Part shown: one piece after another, positions 8,353-21,675 of the stretch | How positions within the stretch are numbered: position 1 is the first letter of the stretch | Layout: every line of letters starts with the position of its first letter | Assembly (NCBI RefSeq): GCF_014651675.1 | Contig: NZ_BMXI01000001.1 | Span: 499,968-563,967 of the forward strand | Origin: Roseibacillus persicicus | GTDB lineage: Bacteria; Verrucomicrobiota; Verrucomicrobiia; Verrucomicrobiales; Akkermansiaceae | Reading direction: 5' to 3' | DNA: 64,000 bases | Translations under genes and position numbers: made by a program | Notes under the pieces: model-generated | The model's input: the letters and a program-made list of their open reading frames with translations, nothing else | Databases searched by the model: none | What the model was told of the DNA's origin: nothing

Positions 8353-9294
8353 CTACGCCAGCACGGGCTTGCGATAGCAAGCCTTAATGACTGCCAACAG
8401 GAGCAACTCGACAACGATTTGAATCGCCCGCCACAGAATCGCGGCCGTTGCCACCTCCGCTCCGATGCCCAGCGGAGCAAAAACGAGATAGAGAACCCCC
8501 TCGCGCACCCCCATGCCTCCGGGAGCCCCGAAGGCCAGAAAACCAACGATCCAAGCCAAACCGTAACTACCCGCTGCATCCAAAAGACTAGGGAGAGGGT
8601 CTACTCCAATAGCCTGGAGGCAAAGTAGAAAACCGACTCCGTAGAAAAGCGACAGAGTCAAATACTCGCAATAAGCACGCAGCGTGATTCGCCATTGCAT
8701 TAAGCCGCGCAAAATCTCTCGCGATGCATTATAGATCCTGGTGCGCAGCTTGAAGAGGTCCAGGAAAAGAACAATTCCAGCCGCAAGAATTCCCAATCCC
8801 ACCACCAGGAAAAAACCGGTGGGCGGAATCTGAAAGCGCTCCAAGTAGACCAAGCCGGCCGCTCGCAATTGCGGCGACAAGAGAGTTCCGACCAATCCCA
8901 AACTGGCCCAAGCGGCCACCGTGAGAGCGAGTTCAACCGCCAGGCTCAGCGCGGCTGGCCCTTTGGCTGCACCCACTTGTTTGGCCTCCACCACACGGGA
9001 CGCGTATCCCCAGACTCCACCCGGTAGCCAGCGCATGGACTCGCATTCAATCCACAGCCGGGCTGCCCGCCAGCGACTGACCTCGATGCCAACCAGGCGG
9101 AGAATCACTCCCCAAACGGAAGCATTGAGAAAGAGGTAGACCGCCGCCAAAAGCCCAGCCCCTAACAACATGAGATGATTCGCGGACGCCAGTGCCTCCC
9201 CCAATTGCTCACGCAAAGCCCACAGCCCCCAAGCCATGAAGGCCAGGACCGCGACGAAACAGAAAGGCTTGAGCCGCTTGAGAATAGCTTTCAT
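8353..9294 (-). CDS. Flippase-like membrane protein (UPF0104 / LPG-synthase transmembrane family)
   Basis: The 313-residue protein has about eight predicted membrane helices and no large soluble domain. The conserved GAPGGMGVREG motif near residue 255 is the hallmark of the UPF0104/lysylphosphatidylglycerol-synthase transmembrane family, whose stand-alone members are thought to move lipid-linked substrates or accompany glycolipid synthesis. It is the last gene of a minus-strand operon: only 3 bases separate it from the glycosyltransferase upstream, which indicates cotranscription. A role in exporting or flipping the glycolipid made by the two glycosyltransferases is an inference from this context. 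Confidence 0.85.
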   Translation of the reverse strand: MKAILKRLKPFCFVAVLAFMAWGLWALREQLGEALASANHLMLLGAGLLAAVYLFLNASVWGVILRLVGIEVSRWRAARLWIECESMRWLPGGVWGYASRVVEAKQVGAAKGPAALSLAVELALTVAAWASLGLVGTLLSPQLRAAGLVYLERFQIPPTGFFLVVGLGILAAGIVLFLDLFKLRTRIYNASREILRGLMQWRITLRAYCEYLTLSLFYGVGFLLCLQAIGVDPLPSLLDAAGSYGLAWIVGFLAFGAPGGMGVREGVLYLVFAPLGIGAEVATAAILWRAIQIVVELLLLAVIKACYRKPVLA

Positions 9295-9297
9295 CGC

Positions 9298-10512
9298 CTA
9301 TTGCCCGGGCGTCCCGGCCGTCCCATCATAGACGGCGACGGTGGCATCCACGATGCGGTTCCAGTCGAAGACTTCCTGCGCATAGTCGAAGCCTTGATTC
9401 GCCAAGCGTTTGGCGAGTTCCTGGTCATCGAGAATACGGAGAATGGCCGCGACGAGCGCTTCCTCGTCTTTTTCGGGAACGAGGAGTCCGGTTTCCTCGT
9501 CCTTGATCACATCCACGATTCCCCCCACCCCGGAAGCCACCACTGGCTTGCGATGGCGCAGGGCCTCAATGAGAACCACTCCCAGGCCTTCCGTATCGCC
9601 CCGGTCATCGAAGATGGCAGGATGCACGTAACAGGTGCAGGTGTGGTAGAGCTCGGCCAGTCGCTCACTACTCACAAAGCCAGCCCATTCCACCACCTCG
9701 TCGAGACCGAGCTCGGTGGTCAACTTCATCCACTCCTCCTTGCAGTCCCCTTCGCCCGTGATGACGACCTTAACCTTTCGTTTTTCCAGAATCTTCGGCA
9801 AAGCGCGCAGTAGCACATGAAGGCCCTTGCGCTGAATCAAGCGACCACAGTTCAGCAGAAGCGGTGGATCCGAGACCGGATATTCTTTGCCTACATCGGC
9901 TGCCTCGACTGTCGCGCCATAGGGCAGGATGTGGATTGGCCGGTCACAGAGTTTGCGGATCTCATTCGCGGTGTGGGAACTGTTTGCGCAAAGCGCGTCT
10001 CCTGATTTCAACAGCGCGGCCAAGGCCTTGCGCACTCCTCCGCTATTACGCGCCAACGCCAATTCCGCGCCATGACAAGTCATCACCACCCGCGTCCCGA
10101 AAACCTTGGCCGGCAGCCAGCTCATGAAGCCATGGGGAAAAGGCCAGTGCACGTGCAGCACATCTAACTTTTTCCGCCAGGTCCACCAGAACACTGCAAT
10201 CATCCCGCAAGCAATATAGCTCAGGGCAAATACCTTGAAGAGCGGCGACCCCTGCTTGTTCGGCGCCCCTTCATCATGGGTCAGGGTCTCCCACTGCTTG
10301 GGCGCATAACGCCAGCGCAGCACGGGCACGCCATCAATCTCATGATTCGGCAAGGCGCGCCAGGAAGGAGCCAGCACCGTGACGTCGTGACCGGCTGCGG
10401 CAGTGCGGTTCACGATCTCGCGCTGCCAGGGTACCCCGGGGTCCTCCTGATTGCGGGGATAGGTCGAACCCAGAACTGCAATGCGCAGTTTCTTCGTTTG
10501 CTTCTTTTCCAT
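9298..10512 (-). CDS. Family 4 glycosyltransferase
   Basis: The 404-residue cytoplasmic enzyme has the GT-B fold. The N-terminal half starts RIAVLGSTYPRNQEDPG, with the glycine-containing acceptor loop VPWQREIVNRTAAAGHDV. The C-terminal half carries LLLNCGRLIQRKGLHVLLRA and the nucleotide-sugar site GLGVVLIEALRHRKPVVAS followed by GGIVDVI, which contains the E-x7-E pattern of GT4 retaining enzymes. Donor and acceptor sugars cannot be read from sequence. It lies 22 bases after the GT2-receiver gene and 3 bases before the flippase-like gene, so the three probably build and export one glycan or glycolipid. Confidence 0.9.
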   Translation of the reverse strand: MEKKQTKKLRIAVLGSTYPRNQEDPGVPWQREIVNRTAAAGHDVTVLAPSWRALPNHEIDGVPVLRWRYAPKQWETLTHDEGAPNKQGSPLFKVFALSYIACGMIAVFWWTWRKKLDVLHVHWPFPHGFMSWLPAKVFGTRVVMTCHGAELALARNSGGVRKALAALLKSGDALCANSSHTANEIRKLCDRPIHILPYGATVEAADVGKEYPVSDPPLLLNCGRLIQRKGLHVLLRALPKILEKRKVKVVITGEGDCKEEWMKLTTELGLDEVVEWAGFVSSERLAELYHTCTCYVHPAIFDDRGDTEGLGVVLIEALRHRKPVVASGVGGIVDVIKDEETGLLVPEKDEEALVAAILRILDDQELAKRLANQGFDYAQEVFDWNRIVDATVAVYDGTAGTPGQ

Positions 10513-10534: not shown

Positions 10535-11962
10535 CTAGCCTACTTTTTCACGCGAGATAGGTCGCAGCGAACGGCTGGCCTGAATCGCCCGCCCCAAGGT
10601 CTCCACCAGTTCATCCTTCTGAATCGGCTTCGACAGGAAGTCGAAGGCCCCCGCTTTGATCGCGTCGGCCCCATCCTTGGCCAAGTCTGAGCCTGAAAGC
10701 ACCACCACCTGGGTGAAAGGAGCCATCGCCTTCAGCTTGGGCAAAACCTCAATTCCCGAAAGTCCCGGCAAATAGATATCGAGCAACACCGCATCGAACT
10801 CCGGCCCGATCGCCGCCATCGCCGCTTCAGCCGTATCGACCGCCACGATCTCCCATCCTTCTTTGCCCAACATCAGCGTGCTCAATCTGCGCAGCGTGGA
10901 ATCATCATCCGCTACCAGAATCTTGGCTTTGTCCTCGCTCTCCTCCTCATTGCCGAAGCTGGTAATCGAGGTCACCTTCTCCCTCACCTCCGCATTGAGC
11001 GGTTCGATGCGGTCCACGATGGGAAGAGGATGCTCCTTGGAGTAATGGCGGTTGGTGATCATCTCCGCTAGAAAGCCGAGCATGACCAGGACCGGAGCCG
11101 CGAACAGCGCCGCCGGGGCAGCCGCGAGAAGTCCCCCGCGCAAGCCGTCGGGAAACAACGGAATAAGGGCCAGCAACCACATCAATCCAGCCGCCATCGC
11201 ACAAAGCATCGCCACTCCACCCATCAGGTGCAGCGGACGCTCGCGGAAATTCTTAATAAAGTAGACTGACCACATGTCCATGAAGCCCCGCACGAAGCGC
11301 TTGACGCCATACTTCGAAACCCCATGCAAACGCGGGTGGTGCTCCACTACAATCTCGGTGGTGCGGAAGCCTTCGATGGAAGCCAGCGAGGGCACCATGC
11401 GATGCATCTCACCATACATGGGCAAAGCCTTCACAACCTCCAGGCGATAGCACTTGAAGCCACAGTTGTGGTCGTGCAGCTTGACCCCATTGACCTTGCT
11501 CAACATCAGGTTGAAGACCCGGCTCGGCAAAACCTTGTGCCAAGGATCGTGGCGCTTCTCTTTGTAGCCCGAAACCACGTCCCAACCTTCCCCTTCGTTC
11601 AACTTCTCCAAGAAGCGCGGAATCTCTTTCGGATCGTCCTGAAGATCCGCGTCGAGGGTAAAAACGATCTCGCCGGAAACCTCGGCGTATCCAGCGGAAA
11701 GAGCCGGGGCCTTTCCCTGATTGTTCCGAAAACGTATCGCCCGCACATGCTCCGTATCGTTCTTCGCCAGCTTCTCGACCACTTCCCACGAGGAATCCGT
11801 GCTGCCATCATCAATAAAGATGATTTCCCACCCTCGGGACAGTTCATTGGCCTGCTCGGCAATACGATCATACAGCTCTTGCAGGGTCTCCTGCTCGTTC
11901 ATCAGAGGGATGATGAAGCTCAGCGTTGGCTTCTCTGATTGGCTTTGGGATGTGGTCTTCAT
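10535..11962 (-). CDS. GT2 glycosyltransferase fused to a response-regulator receiver domain
   Basis: The product has 475 residues from the ATG at 11962; a GTG at 11977 would add five. Residues 13-175 form a GT2 domain of the polyprenyl-phosphate sugar transferase type (dolichol-phosphate mannose synthase/GtrB-like): FIIPLMNEQETL, FIDDGSTDSS, the metal site TLDADLQDD (DAD at 104-106), and HNCGFKCYR. Two membrane helices follow (about 246-271 and 280-303), as in GtrB-like enzymes. After an acidic linker, residues 346-465 form a complete receiver domain: acidic pocket ADDD (352-354), phospho-acceptor Asp395 in VLLDIYLPG, Ser423 in VLSGSD and Lys445 in LSKPIQ. The reading frame is continuous through the linker. 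It is the first gene of the glycan operon. Phosphorylation-controlled sugar-lipid synthesis is an inference. Confidence 0.9.
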   Translation of the reverse strand: MKTTSQSQSEKPTLSFIIPLMNEQETLQELYDRIAEQANELSRGWEIIFIDDGSTDSSWEVVEKLAKNDTEHVRAIRFRNNQGKAPALSAGYAEVSGEIVFTLDADLQDDPKEIPRFLEKLNEGEGWDVVSGYKEKRHDPWHKVLPSRVFNLMLSKVNGVKLHDHNCGFKCYRLEVVKALPMYGEMHRMVPSLASIEGFRTTEIVVEHHPRLHGVSKYGVKRFVRGFMDMWSVYFIKNFRERPLHLMGGVAMLCAMAAGLMWLLALIPLFPDGLRGGLLAAAPAALFAAPVLVMLGFLAEMITNRHYSKEHPLPIVDRIEPLNAEVREKVTSITSFGNEEESEDKAKILVADDDSTLRRLSTLMLGKEGWEIVAVDTAEAAMAAIGPEFDAVLLDIYLPGLSGIEVLPKLKAMAPFTQVVVLSGSDLAKDGADAIKAGAFDFLSKPIQKDELVETLGRAIQASRSLRPISREKVG

Positions 11963-18586: not shown

Positions 18587-20044
18587 TCACGAGGAGGAGT
18601 TGAGCGGGAAAGTAACGAGGAAGGTCGAACCCCGGCCTATCTCGCTTTCGACCTCAATGCGTCCCCCATGCTGCCGCACGAAAGCATCACAAATCGATAG
18701 ACCCAAACCAGAATTCCCCACCCCCGACCGCCGGGACCTCGCGGTATCGACCCGATAGAAGCGCTCGAAAAGATGCTTCTGCTCTTCCTGACCGATTCCC
18801 TCCCCCGAGTCTTGCACTCCAAGCTCAACCTCACGCTCTCCTTTCCGAGTCCAAATCCTGATCGAAACCCCGGTGGGGTTGTGCTGAAGGGCATTGCCTA
18901 ACAGATTGGCCACCACCCGCACGATGGCATCCCGGTCTCCCATCAATGGCGCGGGTTGCAGGTCCAGCTTCAACTCGGCATCCCGCTTGGCCACCAGTCC
19001 CCGCATCTCACTCGCGACCGTTCTCACCACGTCCGCCAGATCCATCGGGTCGCGCTTGGCGTGCCGTGCTTCATCCAAACGCGCCAGCAACAGGAGCTCC
19101 TCCACCAACTTCTTCATCCGCTGTGCCGCGCGCTCGGCGGTGAGCAGGCCCTCGCGATACTCCTGTCCGGGGCGCTCGGCCGAAAGCAGTTGCTGAATCT
19201 GCCCAATGACCACTGTTAGAGGAGTCCGCAACTCATGAGAAGCGTCCGCCGTGAACTGCTCCCGCTCTTTAATCCCGGCCTCAAGCTTGGCAAAGGTTGT
19301 ATTGAGCACCTCGGCCAATCCATGCAGCTCCCTGCTCGCGTGCGCGGAGTCGATACGCTTGCTCAAATCCCCCTCGGCGATCTCCGTGGCCGTTCGACCA
19401 ATCACCCCAATCGGCCGCAATCCCCAACGCACAATCAACCATCCTACCAAGAGCCCTCCACCGAAGAGACCCAACCCCACCCCGATCAACTTGCGCGTGT
19501 GCTGGCGCAATTGGGGCTCGATGAGAGTCAGGGGAGCCCCCACCACGATGACCCGTCGCCCGGGTCCCATGAATCTCATCATGCGATGCCCTTCGCGAGT
19601 GCGCAGTTCATCCGCAATACGTCCTTCCTCATAGGCGACAAAGTCCGGCGCGGGCCGCCCCGCCCGATAGACAATCTCGCCCTGCGGATCCCAGGCGACC
19701 GCCCAATAGGACTCACTCAACCACTCGGGCACTTTCCGCCCCGGCATCTCGGGACGCCCCTCTCCACCCGGCCCTCGCGCCCTTCTTTCGGCCCCCTCTC
19801 CCCGCTGTCGGGGTGGCGGAGGCCCTTCGCGATTGCGCGCTCCCCCCGGAGCGACCTGCGGTAGAATCGGTCTCACCAAGTCTGCCAAACGCGCATCCAG
19901 CCGGTCCAACTGGTGCTCTCTCTCATATCGATAAAAGGCAATCGTCATCGCCGCGATGGCCAGGGCCAAAGCCACTCCATACCAGAGCTGAATCCGCCAG
20001 GTGATGGACTTCCACCAGGGCAGGAATGGTTTCGACGACTTCAT
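18587..20044 (-). CDS. Sensor histidine kinase
   Basis: The 485-residue inner-membrane kinase has TM1 at about 18-36, a periplasmic sensor region at 37-185, TM2 at 186-206, then a HAMP linker (LRPIGVIGRTATEIAEGDLS). The dimerisation/phospho-acceptor domain has His270 in ADASHELRTPLTVV. The ATPase domain has the N box NLLGNALQHNPTG, G1 VQDSGEGIG, the F box HLFERFYR and G2 GNSGLGLSI. The periplasmic part contains Pro/Arg/Gly-rich low complexity at residues 67-103 (GPPPPRQRGEG). Its ATG overlaps the stop of the response regulator gene by four bases, so the pair is translationally coupled. The signal is unknown. Confidence 0.95.
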   Translation of the reverse strand: MKSSKPFLPWWKSITWRIQLWYGVALALAIAAMTIAFYRYEREHQLDRLDARLADLVRPILPQVAPGGARNREGPPPPRQRGEGAERRARGPGGEGRPEMPGRKVPEWLSESYWAVAWDPQGEIVYRAGRPAPDFVAYEEGRIADELRTREGHRMMRFMGPGRRVIVVGAPLTLIEPQLRQHTRKLIGVGLGLFGGGLLVGWLIVRWGLRPIGVIGRTATEIAEGDLSKRIDSAHASRELHGLAEVLNTTFAKLEAGIKEREQFTADASHELRTPLTVVIGQIQQLLSAERPGQEYREGLLTAERAAQRMKKLVEELLLLARLDEARHAKRDPMDLADVVRTVASEMRGLVAKRDAELKLDLQPAPLMGDRDAIVRVVANLLGNALQHNPTGVSIRIWTRKGEREVELGVQDSGEGIGQEEQKHLFERFYRVDTARSRRSGVGNSGLGLSICDAFVRQHGGRIEVESEIGRGSTFLVTFPLNSSS

Positions 20045-20706
20045 TCCGCCACATAACCCGCCCCCCGTCGGGTTTTGACAAAGTCGCGTCCCAGCTTTTG
20101 CCTCAACTTATAGACATAGACATCGAGCATATTCGAAAGCGACTCGTCATCTTCGTCGAAAAGGTTTTCGTAAATAAAGTCACGGGACACCACTTCGCCC
20201 CGTCTCCGCATCAACATCTCCGCCAGAGCAAACTCCCGTGCGGTCAGCTCGACCGGCTTGCCGTCCACGGTCACCCGCATCGCCATCGTGTCGAGCTCCA
20301 CCGGACCGAGAGTCAGCTGACGCTCAAGACTCAGCCCCCCTCGTCGAATCACCGCCCTCACCCGCGCAAGGAATTCGGGATGGTCAAAAGGCTTGGTGAG
20401 ATAGTCGTCCGCCCCTTCGTCCAAGCCCCTTACCCGATCCGACACCGCGTCTCGTGCCGTCAACATCAGGACGGGAATCTTCTTAACCGCGCGCAGCCTG
20501 CGCAACACCTCGAAGCCATCCAACCCCTCCAACATCACATCCAGGACGATGGCATCGTAGTCCCAGTTGGCAGCGCGATAGAACCCCTCCTCCCCATCGC
20601 TGCAGGAGTCTACCACATAGCCCTCGTCCCGTAGCATCGAGACGAGAAGAGCACGCAGGTCTTCGTCATCCTCGACTACCAGAATCTTCACTCGAACAGA
20701 CGACAT
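20041..20706 (-). CDS. OmpR-family response regulator
   Basis: The start at 20706 gives 221 residues, the normal length for this family; the frame continues 42 codons upstream without family similarity. The receiver domain has acidic Asp13-Asp14 (VVEDDED), phospho-acceptor Asp56 (VLDVMLEG), Thr83 (MLTARD) and Lys105 (LTKPFDHP). The C-terminal winged helix includes ELTAREFALAEMLMRRRG, VVSRDFIYENLF and NMLDVYVYKLRQKLG. It is coupled to the histidine kinase by an ATGA overlap. A long inverted repeat and TTCAGGTTC copies upstream are candidate binding sites, which would mean autoregulation (inference). Confidence 0.95.
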   Translation of the reverse strand: MSSVRVKILVVEDDEDLRALLVSMLRDEGYVVDSCSDGEEGFYRAANWDYDAIVLDVMLEGLDGFEVLRRLRAVKKIPVLMLTARDAVSDRVRGLDEGADDYLTKPFDHPEFLARVRAVIRRGGLSLERQLTLGPVELDTMAMRVTVDGKPVELTAREFALAEMLMRRRGEVVSRDFIYENLFDEDDESLSNMLDVYVYKLRQKLGRDFVKTRRGAGYVAE

Positions 20707-20803
20707 CACCATCAATGGAAAAAGAAAAACATAAAATCCCCCGCCGGAACGTTCCTCCTTCGAGTTCTCCAGCACGAGCACATCAAAGGTGTTTGTGACC
20801 GCT

Positions 20804-20909
20804 CGAACCTGAACAGGAGATGAATCCGACACTCAGCTGACAACCTTCAGGTTCCTTTCGGTGTCTTTTCCCCCTTTTGCATAGGCGATTCATCTCCGGT
20901 TCAGGTTCG
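20804..20909. promoter_or_regulatory. Candidate operator: 23-base inverted repeat with three TTCAGGTTC copies
   Basis: Arm 20804-20826 and arm 20887-20909 are inverted copies matching at 22 of 23 positions. Each contains the nonamer TTCAGGTTC (minus strand at 20805-20813, plus strand at 20900-20908). A third plus-strand copy stands alone at 20846-20854. The element sits between the response regulator start (20706) and the divergent PEP-CTERM gene (20932), where a regulator controlling both would bind. Direct or inverted repeat binding is normal for OmpR-type regulators. Confidence 0.6.
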
Positions 20910-20931: not shown

Positions 20932-21675
20932 ATGAAAACAACCCGCTCAACCTTAATCCAAGCCGCGCCCTTCTTTTTCTTTTTCAACACTCTCATCAAT
21001 GCCCAGACCATCATCGTGTCGGAGTGGCACGTTCCCTCCGGCAATCCCTACACTACCGGCAGTGCAGGTTCGATTGTGGTCGGCGATGGAAGTATGGATA
21101 GCGCCAACAGCGCCACCTTCTACGGAGTCTTTGACGAAATCCTTCTCGCCGATGGCATGACCATCTCCCTCAATGCCGATCTCACCCTCGCCGGGGGAAG
21201 CATCCATAGCAACCAGATGCGCTTCGGCGTCTATGACTCCGACGGTTCGTCCACAGACATTGGCTGGCTGGGCTATTTCTCACAAAACAATCTCCTCCGC
21301 GAACGCAACGATCCCAATACGAACAGCTTCGCCTCCACCGGTGGAACCCAGACCCTGGGAACAGGCTCAGAGCAGAACACTTTCGGCAACGGGAATTACG
21401 ATTTGGCGTTCAGCATCACGCGGGACGGCAACCTTGTGGATGTCCTCGCCACCCTGACTGGAGTCGGCTCAACGACCTACAGTTCGATGAGAACCGTATC
21501 CGGCGACACTCCGAACACCTTCACCTTCGACCGCATAGGCTTTCTTCTGGGCTCTTCACTCGGGGTCGACCAAGCGACTCTATCGAACGTGACCATCAAC
21601 ACCGTCCCCGAGCCCTCGGCTCTTGCAATGTCCCTTCTCAGCCTACTGACCCTTCTGAGAAGACAACGTCGTTAG
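20932..21675 (+). CDS. PEP-CTERM sorting-domain protein
   Basis: The 247-residue exported protein has a signal peptide ending near FNTLINAQ. Its C-terminus has the three-part sorting tail: VPEPSALAMS, a hydrophobic helix, and the basic end LLRRQRR. The body is beta-rich and contains many Ser, Thr and Gly residues; it may be a jelly-roll (GSIHSNQMRFGVYDSDGS). In known systems an exosortase recognises the tail and cuts it; no exosortase gene is in this window. It starts 23 bases beyond the candidate two-component operator, so it may be a target of that system (inference). Confidence 0.83.
   Translation: MKTTRSTLIQAAPFFFFFNTLINAQTIIVSEWHVPSGNPYTTGSAGSIVVGDGSMDSANSATFYGVFDEILLADGMTISLNADLTLAGGSIHSNQMRFGVYDSDGSSTDIGWLGYFSQNNLLRERNDPNTNSFASTGGTQTLGTGSEQNTFGNGNYDLAFSITRDGNLVDVLATLTGVGSTTYSSMRTVSGDTPNTFTFDRIGFLLGSSLGVDQATLSNVTINTVPEPSALAMSLLSLLTLLRRQRR

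Follow-up and report, generated by a model that had tools for sequence, protein, structure and literature searches.

The window, that is, the whole 64,000-nucleotide stretch of Roseibacillus persicicus DNA that was analysed, carries an operon of three genes on its minus strand. The first gene (10535..11962, −) encodes a GT2-receiver fusion protein of 475 aa in a single ORF, stop-free from the ATG at 11962 and extended to 480 aa if an upstream GTG is used. Pfam matched this protein to PF00535 at residues 15–178 (E 1e-31) and to PF00072 at residues 348–455 (E 6.3e-23). The second gene (9298..10512, −; PF00534/PF13439) encodes a GT4 glycosyltransferase and the third (8353..9294, −; PF03706, E 5.2e-16) a flippase-like LPG_synthase_TM membrane protein; they belong to families c1 and c2, respectively, of the gene module defined below. 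Gaps of 22 bases between the GT2-REC and GT4 genes and of 3 bases between the GT4 and flippase-like genes bear out the operon order given in the first-pass annotation, which had also stated correctly that these three genes do not include a partner kinase.

Within the fused protein, the GT2 catalytic domain of ArnC/GtrB type (residues 13–235; 11258..11926, −) is followed by membrane or juxtamembrane helices (residues 243–310; 11033..11236, −), a disordered linker (residues 313–342; 10937..11026, −) and the receiver domain (residues 345–466; 10565..10930, −), in which the codon of D395 occupies bases 10778–10780. An AlphaFold2 prediction made with 23 aligned sequences gave a mean pLDDT of 85.5 and a pTM of 0.59. 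The glycosyltransferase, the membrane helices (243–265 and 272–310) and the receiver were predicted confidently, with high confidence for the receiver elements at 347–466, and the linker had a pLDDT of <50 and low identity among fusions. For the search for structural relatives, a profile was built from 15 fusions. The best solved relative was ArnC (9hwj; profile positions 9–298, E 1.3e-56), along with GtrB (5eke; positions 7–297, E 5.8e-33) and next DPMS (5mlz, E 1.3e-25), and the top match of the receiver part was the NtrC1 receiver (1zy2, E 4.6e-26). In Foldseek, the best 25 matches were all ArnC, GtrB and DPMS entries (ArnC 9asc, E 5.7e-25). The homology to ArnC and GtrB spans their length, the GT2 domain and then the membrane helices, as in polyprenyl-phosphate GT2 synthases. 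ArnC (the undecaprenyl-phosphate L-Ara4FN transferase) and GtrB share these parts with the fusion; they have no receiver. The NCBIfam ArnC model NF007986, whose cut-off is 529 bits, scored the protein at 167.2 bits, which makes it ArnC-like and not an ArnC equivalog; PF13641 reached 25.4 bits, below its cut-off of 27. Judged by these homologies, the output of the window protein is probably that of a polyprenyl-phosphate sugar synthase.

Relatives were then sought in several genome sets. In the sample of the window's order (386 genomes; match threshold E <= 1e-100), 21 genomes matched and 12 of these carried the fusion, at 15 loci (two each in G050, G126 and G053). A named collection, holding 84,980 species genomes by its description, was scanned with two peptide patterns and the best 80 of 557 relatives were taken. 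Fusions were present in 17 of these 80, 16 labelled as Verrucomicrobiota groups and one (L081) as an uncultured bacterium; 13 were contigs already known, and L081, L083, L084 and L087 were added. In the phylum sample (387 genomes), 20 genomes had a match at E <= 1e-70, with the fusion in G000 (the window's genome) and G003 only; in the remaining 18 the match ended at query residue 335 at most. One Planctomycetota candidate, L105 (query range 10–430), was rejected as a fusion, no receiver being present. In total, 19 distinct fusions were found in 16 genomes, 12 of these genomes lying in the window's order. The 18 other fused loci are 43–76% identical to the window protein, align with it throughout and come from 15 other genomes, G050, G126 and G053 holding second copies elsewhere in the same genome. 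These 18 further distinct loci exclude chance and assembly error, and the GT2-receiver fusion is real. The claim of the first-pass annotation that both domains lie in one chain therefore stands (one unbroken ORF with both Pfam domains), and its reservation that the chain might be an assembly error was removed by the further loci; the first part of its second reservation, restriction to this genome, was removed by the 16 genomes.

Residues D51, D52, D104, D106, H163, D164, C167, R188 and V190 are identical in all 19 fusions. D104 and D106 form the acidic DxD zone, and catalytic roles are presumed for these residues. A second fused copy in G126 (L024 / L062) has LRDD for LQDD, HKCDF for HNCGF and SENRV for SKYGV with an intact receiver; it is perhaps regulatory rather than catalytic. 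In the window receiver D352, D353, D395, S423 and K445 are all present, in agreement with the acidic pocket, Asp395, Ser423 and Lys445 reported earlier. The same pocket (acidic pair, phospho-Asp, Ser/Thr and Lys, with ED for DD in one case) is kept in 16 of the 19 fusions, at a mean identity among these 16 receivers of only 39%. With the phosphorylation residues in place in 16 of 19, the other part of the second reservation, a receiver that cannot be phosphorylated, also fell away. In the other three the pocket is degenerate: L083 and L087 have ER in place of the acidic pair and no Ser/Thr, and in L084 the phospho-Asp is replaced by Asn and Ser/Thr is missing. These three belong to one group of Verrucomicrobiota MAGs and form a natural pseudo-receiver set for comparison. 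Across eight close fusions, mean identity was 82% for the glycosyltransferase, 59% for the membrane part, 35% for the linker (residues 311–344) and 61% for the receiver. In the receiver, pN was lower than pS in 10/10 pairs tested; synonymous sites were saturated in most of them, and the dN/dS ratio was set aside for that reason.

To define the module, ORFs were called and clustered in 26 stretches and the recurring clusters were identified on representatives; HMMs built from these clusters were run on the window and loci L052–L153, then on 20 further stretches. The signalling genes of the module encode an H-NOX protein (PF07700), a PAS-HisKA-HATPase-receiver hybrid kinase, an Hpt (PF01627) or REC-Hpt protein and a sigma-54 NtrC-type regulator. 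The glycan genes encode a GT2 (fused or receiver-less), a GT4, a PF03706 flippase-like protein and c7 with PMT_2, and the other genes an HlyD/RND adaptor, a NodT-type outer-membrane protein, c3 and, in several loci, a DUF4114 protein. Ahead of its PMT_2 region, c7 has a part similar to a rhamnosidase entry (E 3e-8), and c3 returned just weak TPR-like matches (best E 0.011). LuxO is an NtrC-type regulator, and the NCBIfam LuxO model matched the NtrC-type regulator of the H-NOX locus with a score under its cut-off. Of the 18 H-NOX rows taken from the loci, 17 have YxSxR; the remaining one, L104, is cut off by its contig end and may have diverged. H-NOX, hybrid kinase, Hpt and NtrC-type regulator were found together in L067 (in the window's genome), L068, L070 and L071. 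Fusion-free, less complete modules with H-NOX and weak kinase scores were found in the Planctomycetota loci L102, L120 and L140, where the module HMM did not find the outer-membrane protein. By gene content, a module joining an H-NOX phosphorelay to glycan synthesis and export is common to Verrucomicrobiota and, less completely, Planctomycetota.

The GT2 gene of the module is either the fused one or a receiver-less homologue. In the receiver-less loci L070 and L071, the GT2 gene lies between the outer-membrane protein gene and the GT4 gene, and the fused gene of L055 is in the same place; in L056, L059 and L061 the fused gene lies between the GT4 gene and the relay side. Beside GT4 and relay genes, the GT2 is fused in L055, L056, L059 and L061 and receiver-less in L070, L071 and L093–L099. 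Three isolates with the receiver-less module and H-NOX are Haloferula rosea (L094), Roseibacillus ishigakijimensis (L097) and Rubritalea profundi (L099). A relay gene (kinase, Hpt or NtrC) was on the fusion stretch in 8 of 19 loci (L053, L055, L056, L057, L058, L059, L061 and L064) and H-NOX in four (L055, L056, L059 and L061). The full H-NOX relay was present among fusion loci only in L059 and L061, both with REC-Hpt. A stand-alone REC-Hpt near hybrid kinases with two receivers was seen in L059, L061 and L064, a possible extra relay step. For the other 11 fusion loci, the window included, no relay gene was found on the stretch seen, five of them being contigs of <12 kb. In the module HMM scan of the window and L052, both with long flanks, no module relay gene was found near the fusion.

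In the window's genome the module is split. Locus L067 (contig 12:146000-165900) holds genes for Hpt, NtrC, H-NOX, hybrid kinase, outer-membrane protein, receiver-less GT2, adaptor, c3 and PMT, and no GT4 or flippase-like gene was found within the 19.9 kb examined. When 10 genomes were searched, GT4 (E <= 1e-60) and the flippase-like gene (E <= 1e-10) each gave a single match per genome. For G000 both single copies lie in the window operon; in G003 the fusion has the GT4 gene as its neighbour, and the flippase-like gene is carried by the H-NOX contig. Our best reading of the window operon is therefore as a piece displaced from the H-NOX module, carrying the single-copy GT4 and flippase-like genes that L067 lacks. 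Since no relay gene lies near the fusion, the link between fusion and relay in this genome consists of family membership and single-copy complementarity. The one Pfam Hpt of G000 at E <= 0.01 is in the contig-12 H-NOX locus. Two receiver-less GT2 homologues, 54–56% identical to the fusion, are also encoded in this genome, one within the H-NOX locus (L067, contig 12) and the other alone on contig 5 (L066).

The first-pass annotation had put forward the kinase encoded at 18587–20044 as the partner of the fused receiver. Its gene overlaps that of an OmpR-type regulator (20041–20832) by 4 bases, so the kinase looks like that regulator's own partner, and it was ruled out as the best candidate. The module-kinase HMM likewise found a single kinase in the window, at 18590–20107, overlapping a regulator gene. 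The H-NOX / hybrid kinase / Hpt relay, located on another contig, is more plausible as the partner. Further along the window, an 885-residue DUF4114 protein (PF13448; 26749–29403, +) belongs to the same family as the DUF4114 proteins of several H-NOX/glycan module loci and is a possible substrate or surface partner of the module. A 247-residue protein without a Pfam match (20932–21675, +) ends in what we take to be a PEP-CTERM-like C-terminal tail.

At the level of whole genomes, PF07700 was detected in 84 of the 386 genomes of the order, namely in 11 of the 12 fusion genomes vs 73 of the 374 others (Fisher p 3e-7, a value that ignores shared ancestry and assumes that both samples are the same 386 genomes). 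The exception, G030 (85% complete), has the fusion, kinase and Hpt, with no H-NOX detected by Pfam. G053 has three H-NOX proteins, all divergent, with module-HMM scores of 32–45 vs about 220–330 in Verrucomicrobiota module loci. Module-type H-NOX is thus present in only 10 of the 12. For G290 and G126, no GT2 was found in the stretch around H-NOX (12,000 and 17,001 bases, respectively); their GT2s at E <= 1e-100, among four candidates scored per genome, are all fused and located elsewhere, so that these two genomes show a split resembling that of the window's genome.

The regions before the fused genes were inspected for sigma-54 promoters. None was found before the window fusion, where the best site (9/15) was equalled in about 0.7 of shuffles. 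Sites of at least 13/15 precede the fused gene in three of 19 loci, L059 (15/15), L061 (13/15) and L081 (14/15), at a distance of 27–45 bases, and are consistent with regulation by an NtrC-type protein. When the scan was extended to 44 loci, some overlapping, it returned 23 sites of at least 14/15; seven of these stood no more than 300 bases from the start of a module gene (four at GT2), and the other 16 lay farther away. With 16 of 23 sites away from module gene starts, the sigma-54 evidence is weak. Given the sites before the fused gene in those three loci, which do not include the window, transcriptional and direct levels of control may both operate.

The kinship of the receiver was examined in a tree of 99 receivers and 120 columns, much of it unresolved. 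The fused receivers lie on the NtrC side of a branch (96/85) that separates them from the hybrid-kinase receivers, and derivation from the receiver of the hybrid kinase was accordingly not supported. Joining the fused and module-NtrC receivers was not rejected (AU p 0.104); the NtrC clade taken as module-type includes one row of G015, a genome without detected H-NOX. Eighteen of the 19 fused receivers group without L081 (80/92, not starred), and holding all 19, L081 included, as one origin gave AU p 0.031. Just before the fused gene of L081 is a short receiver-like ORF (396–755, +; about 119 codons), possibly a single-domain regulator. When the window receiver was matched against the non-fused receivers of each fusion genome, the best match was a module-type NtrC in seven of 12: that of the H-NOX or module locus in G000, G003, G026, G290, G008 and G235, and in G341 one on another contig that groups with the module NtrCs. 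For G024, G030, G050, G053 and G126 it was not a module NtrC, the module NtrC of G050 coming second.

In the GT2 tree (54 rows, with L026 uncounted as its contig ends within the gene), the receiver label needs at least two changes, and placing all 19 fusions and L026 in one clade gave AU p 0.042. Nested among the fusions are 15 receiver-less rows (99/95 together with three fused rows); of the receiver-less rows, L031 at least lies outside any module locus. This nesting suggests either gain then loss of the receiver or two gains; one gain followed by loss in the receiver-less Akkermansiaceae clade is preferred but unproven.

The reading that we favour, with modest confidence, is that the window protein is a receiver-regulated polyprenyl-phosphate sugar synthase which acts, through Asp395, as a second output of the H-NOX phosphorelay. 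The ArnC/GtrB-type part would use a nucleotide-sugar to glycosylate undecaprenyl phosphate on the inner side of the membrane, the GT4, flippase-like and PMT-type proteins would use or move the lipid-linked intermediates, and the adaptor and outer-membrane proteins would export or anchor the product. The H-NOX protein would sense a gas ligand, probably nitric oxide, and control the hybrid kinase, from which phosphate would pass to the Hpt (here that of contig 12) and on to both the NtrC-type regulator and Asp395 of the fused receiver. If the relay Hpt does phosphorylate the fused receiver, the relay has two outputs, a transcription factor and an enzyme. The C-terminal receiver would be held to the enzyme by the flexible linker, and phosphorylation would most likely alter receiver-receiver contacts in the enzyme oligomer and hence activity. 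Phosphorylated NtrC-type receivers form dimers, and both ArnC and GtrB form oligomers; a receiver-driven change of oligomer contacts is preferred but unproven. The more specific proposal, that an H-NOX relay sensing nitric oxide feeds two receivers, on a sigma-54 activator and on a sugar synthase, such that the gas gates a lipid-linked sugar by transcription and by direct phosphorylation, is tentative and in our estimate falls a little short of an even chance.

Alternatively, the receiver could be regulatory but phosphorylated by another kinase, the shared neighbourhood reflecting only a shared glycan pathway. This would sit well with the separate contigs of the fusion and the H-NOX locus in the window's genome, with the five of 12 fusion genomes in which something other than a module NtrC is the closest non-fused receiver, and with the fusion in G030, where H-NOX was not detected. 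It is harder to reconcile with the Hpt, REC-Hpt, hybrid kinase or NtrC genes adjoining the fusion in eight of 19 loci, and the window's single module-kinase-HMM match overlaps a regulator gene of its own; we consider this alternative unlikely. We also judge it improbable that the receiver serves mainly as a structural part or scaffold (for dimerisation, localisation or as a phosphate sink of the relay) with enzyme activity unchanged by phosphorylation. The retention of the domain in the three fusions that lost pocket residues would be expected of a scaffold, and these degenerate pockets, together with the 15 receiver-less rows within the same enzyme clade, indicate that the enzyme family can do without the receiver; the disordered linker and low pTM support no packing of the domains. 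The five pocket positions kept in 16 of 19 receivers that have diverged so far speak against a scaffold. An assembly or annotation artefact merging two genes, which could be raised since all 17 fused loci from the named collection come from metagenome-assembled genomes, is refuted by the independent recurrence of the fusion at 19 distinct loci in 16 genomes and has a negligible probability.

Receiver-regulated glycan synthesis by a relay-fed synthase, as favoured here, has several partial precedents. Passages of PMC5847659 describe chains in Methanobacteriaceae (MTH_548), narrow in taxonomic spread, that combine one or two receivers with a BcsA-like glycosyltransferase. Like the window protein, as far as that account goes, these are response regulators with an enzymatic output, a glycosyltransferase; compared by domain description, they are archaeal and of the PF13641 cellulose-synthase-like type, whereas the window protein is bacterial, of the PF00535 ArnC/GtrB type and tied to H-NOX. 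For Myxococcus xanthus, EpsW~P is reported to activate EpsZ, an undecaprenyl-phosphate sugar enzyme, post-translationally (PMC12802240, in part). There, the regulator is a separate single-domain protein, the enzyme has a phosphoglycosyltransferase fold and the input is the Dif chemosensory system, in contrast to the covalent GT2 fusion of the window. The same article mentions, via another paper, small monotopic phosphoglycosyltransferases with receiver domains, which are lipid-linked glycan enzymes like the window protein but of a different enzyme family. For the relay, the H-NOX - HqsK - LuxU steps of Vibrio parahaemolyticus have been followed in vitro, NO-bound H-NOX lowering kinase activity (PMC6759604, in part). 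The parts of that relay, H-NOX - HqsK - LuxU(Hpt) - LuxO, are the same as those of the module; from what is described its output is transcriptional, and the module adds a receiver on a membrane enzyme. Among the matches listed in the open-access literature, judged by title and start of abstract, neither a bacterial ArnC/GtrB-type GT2-receiver fusion nor an H-NOX with such a glycan module was seen, a weak negative in each case. A receiver-glycosyltransferase fusion and receiver control of a phosphoglycosyltransferase were thus already known, and the tie to H-NOX was unexpected.

Undecaprenyl phosphate is common to several envelope pathways, and its post-translational gating is described as incompletely understood in the portion of PMC12802240 consulted. 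If the favoured reading is correct, attaching the receiver covalently to a GT2 synthase would be a compact way to gate undecaprenyl phosphate use, and the tie to the H-NOX module would supply a concrete input (nitric oxide or another haem ligand), a relay and an output. Receiver control would then extend from EpsZ and the archaeal BcsA-like enzymes to bacterial ArnC/GtrB-type synthases. The module is a candidate gas-controlled glycan pathway common to Verrucomicrobiota and Planctomycetota, in which nitric oxide or a similar signal might act on a surface sugar directly as well as by way of gene expression.
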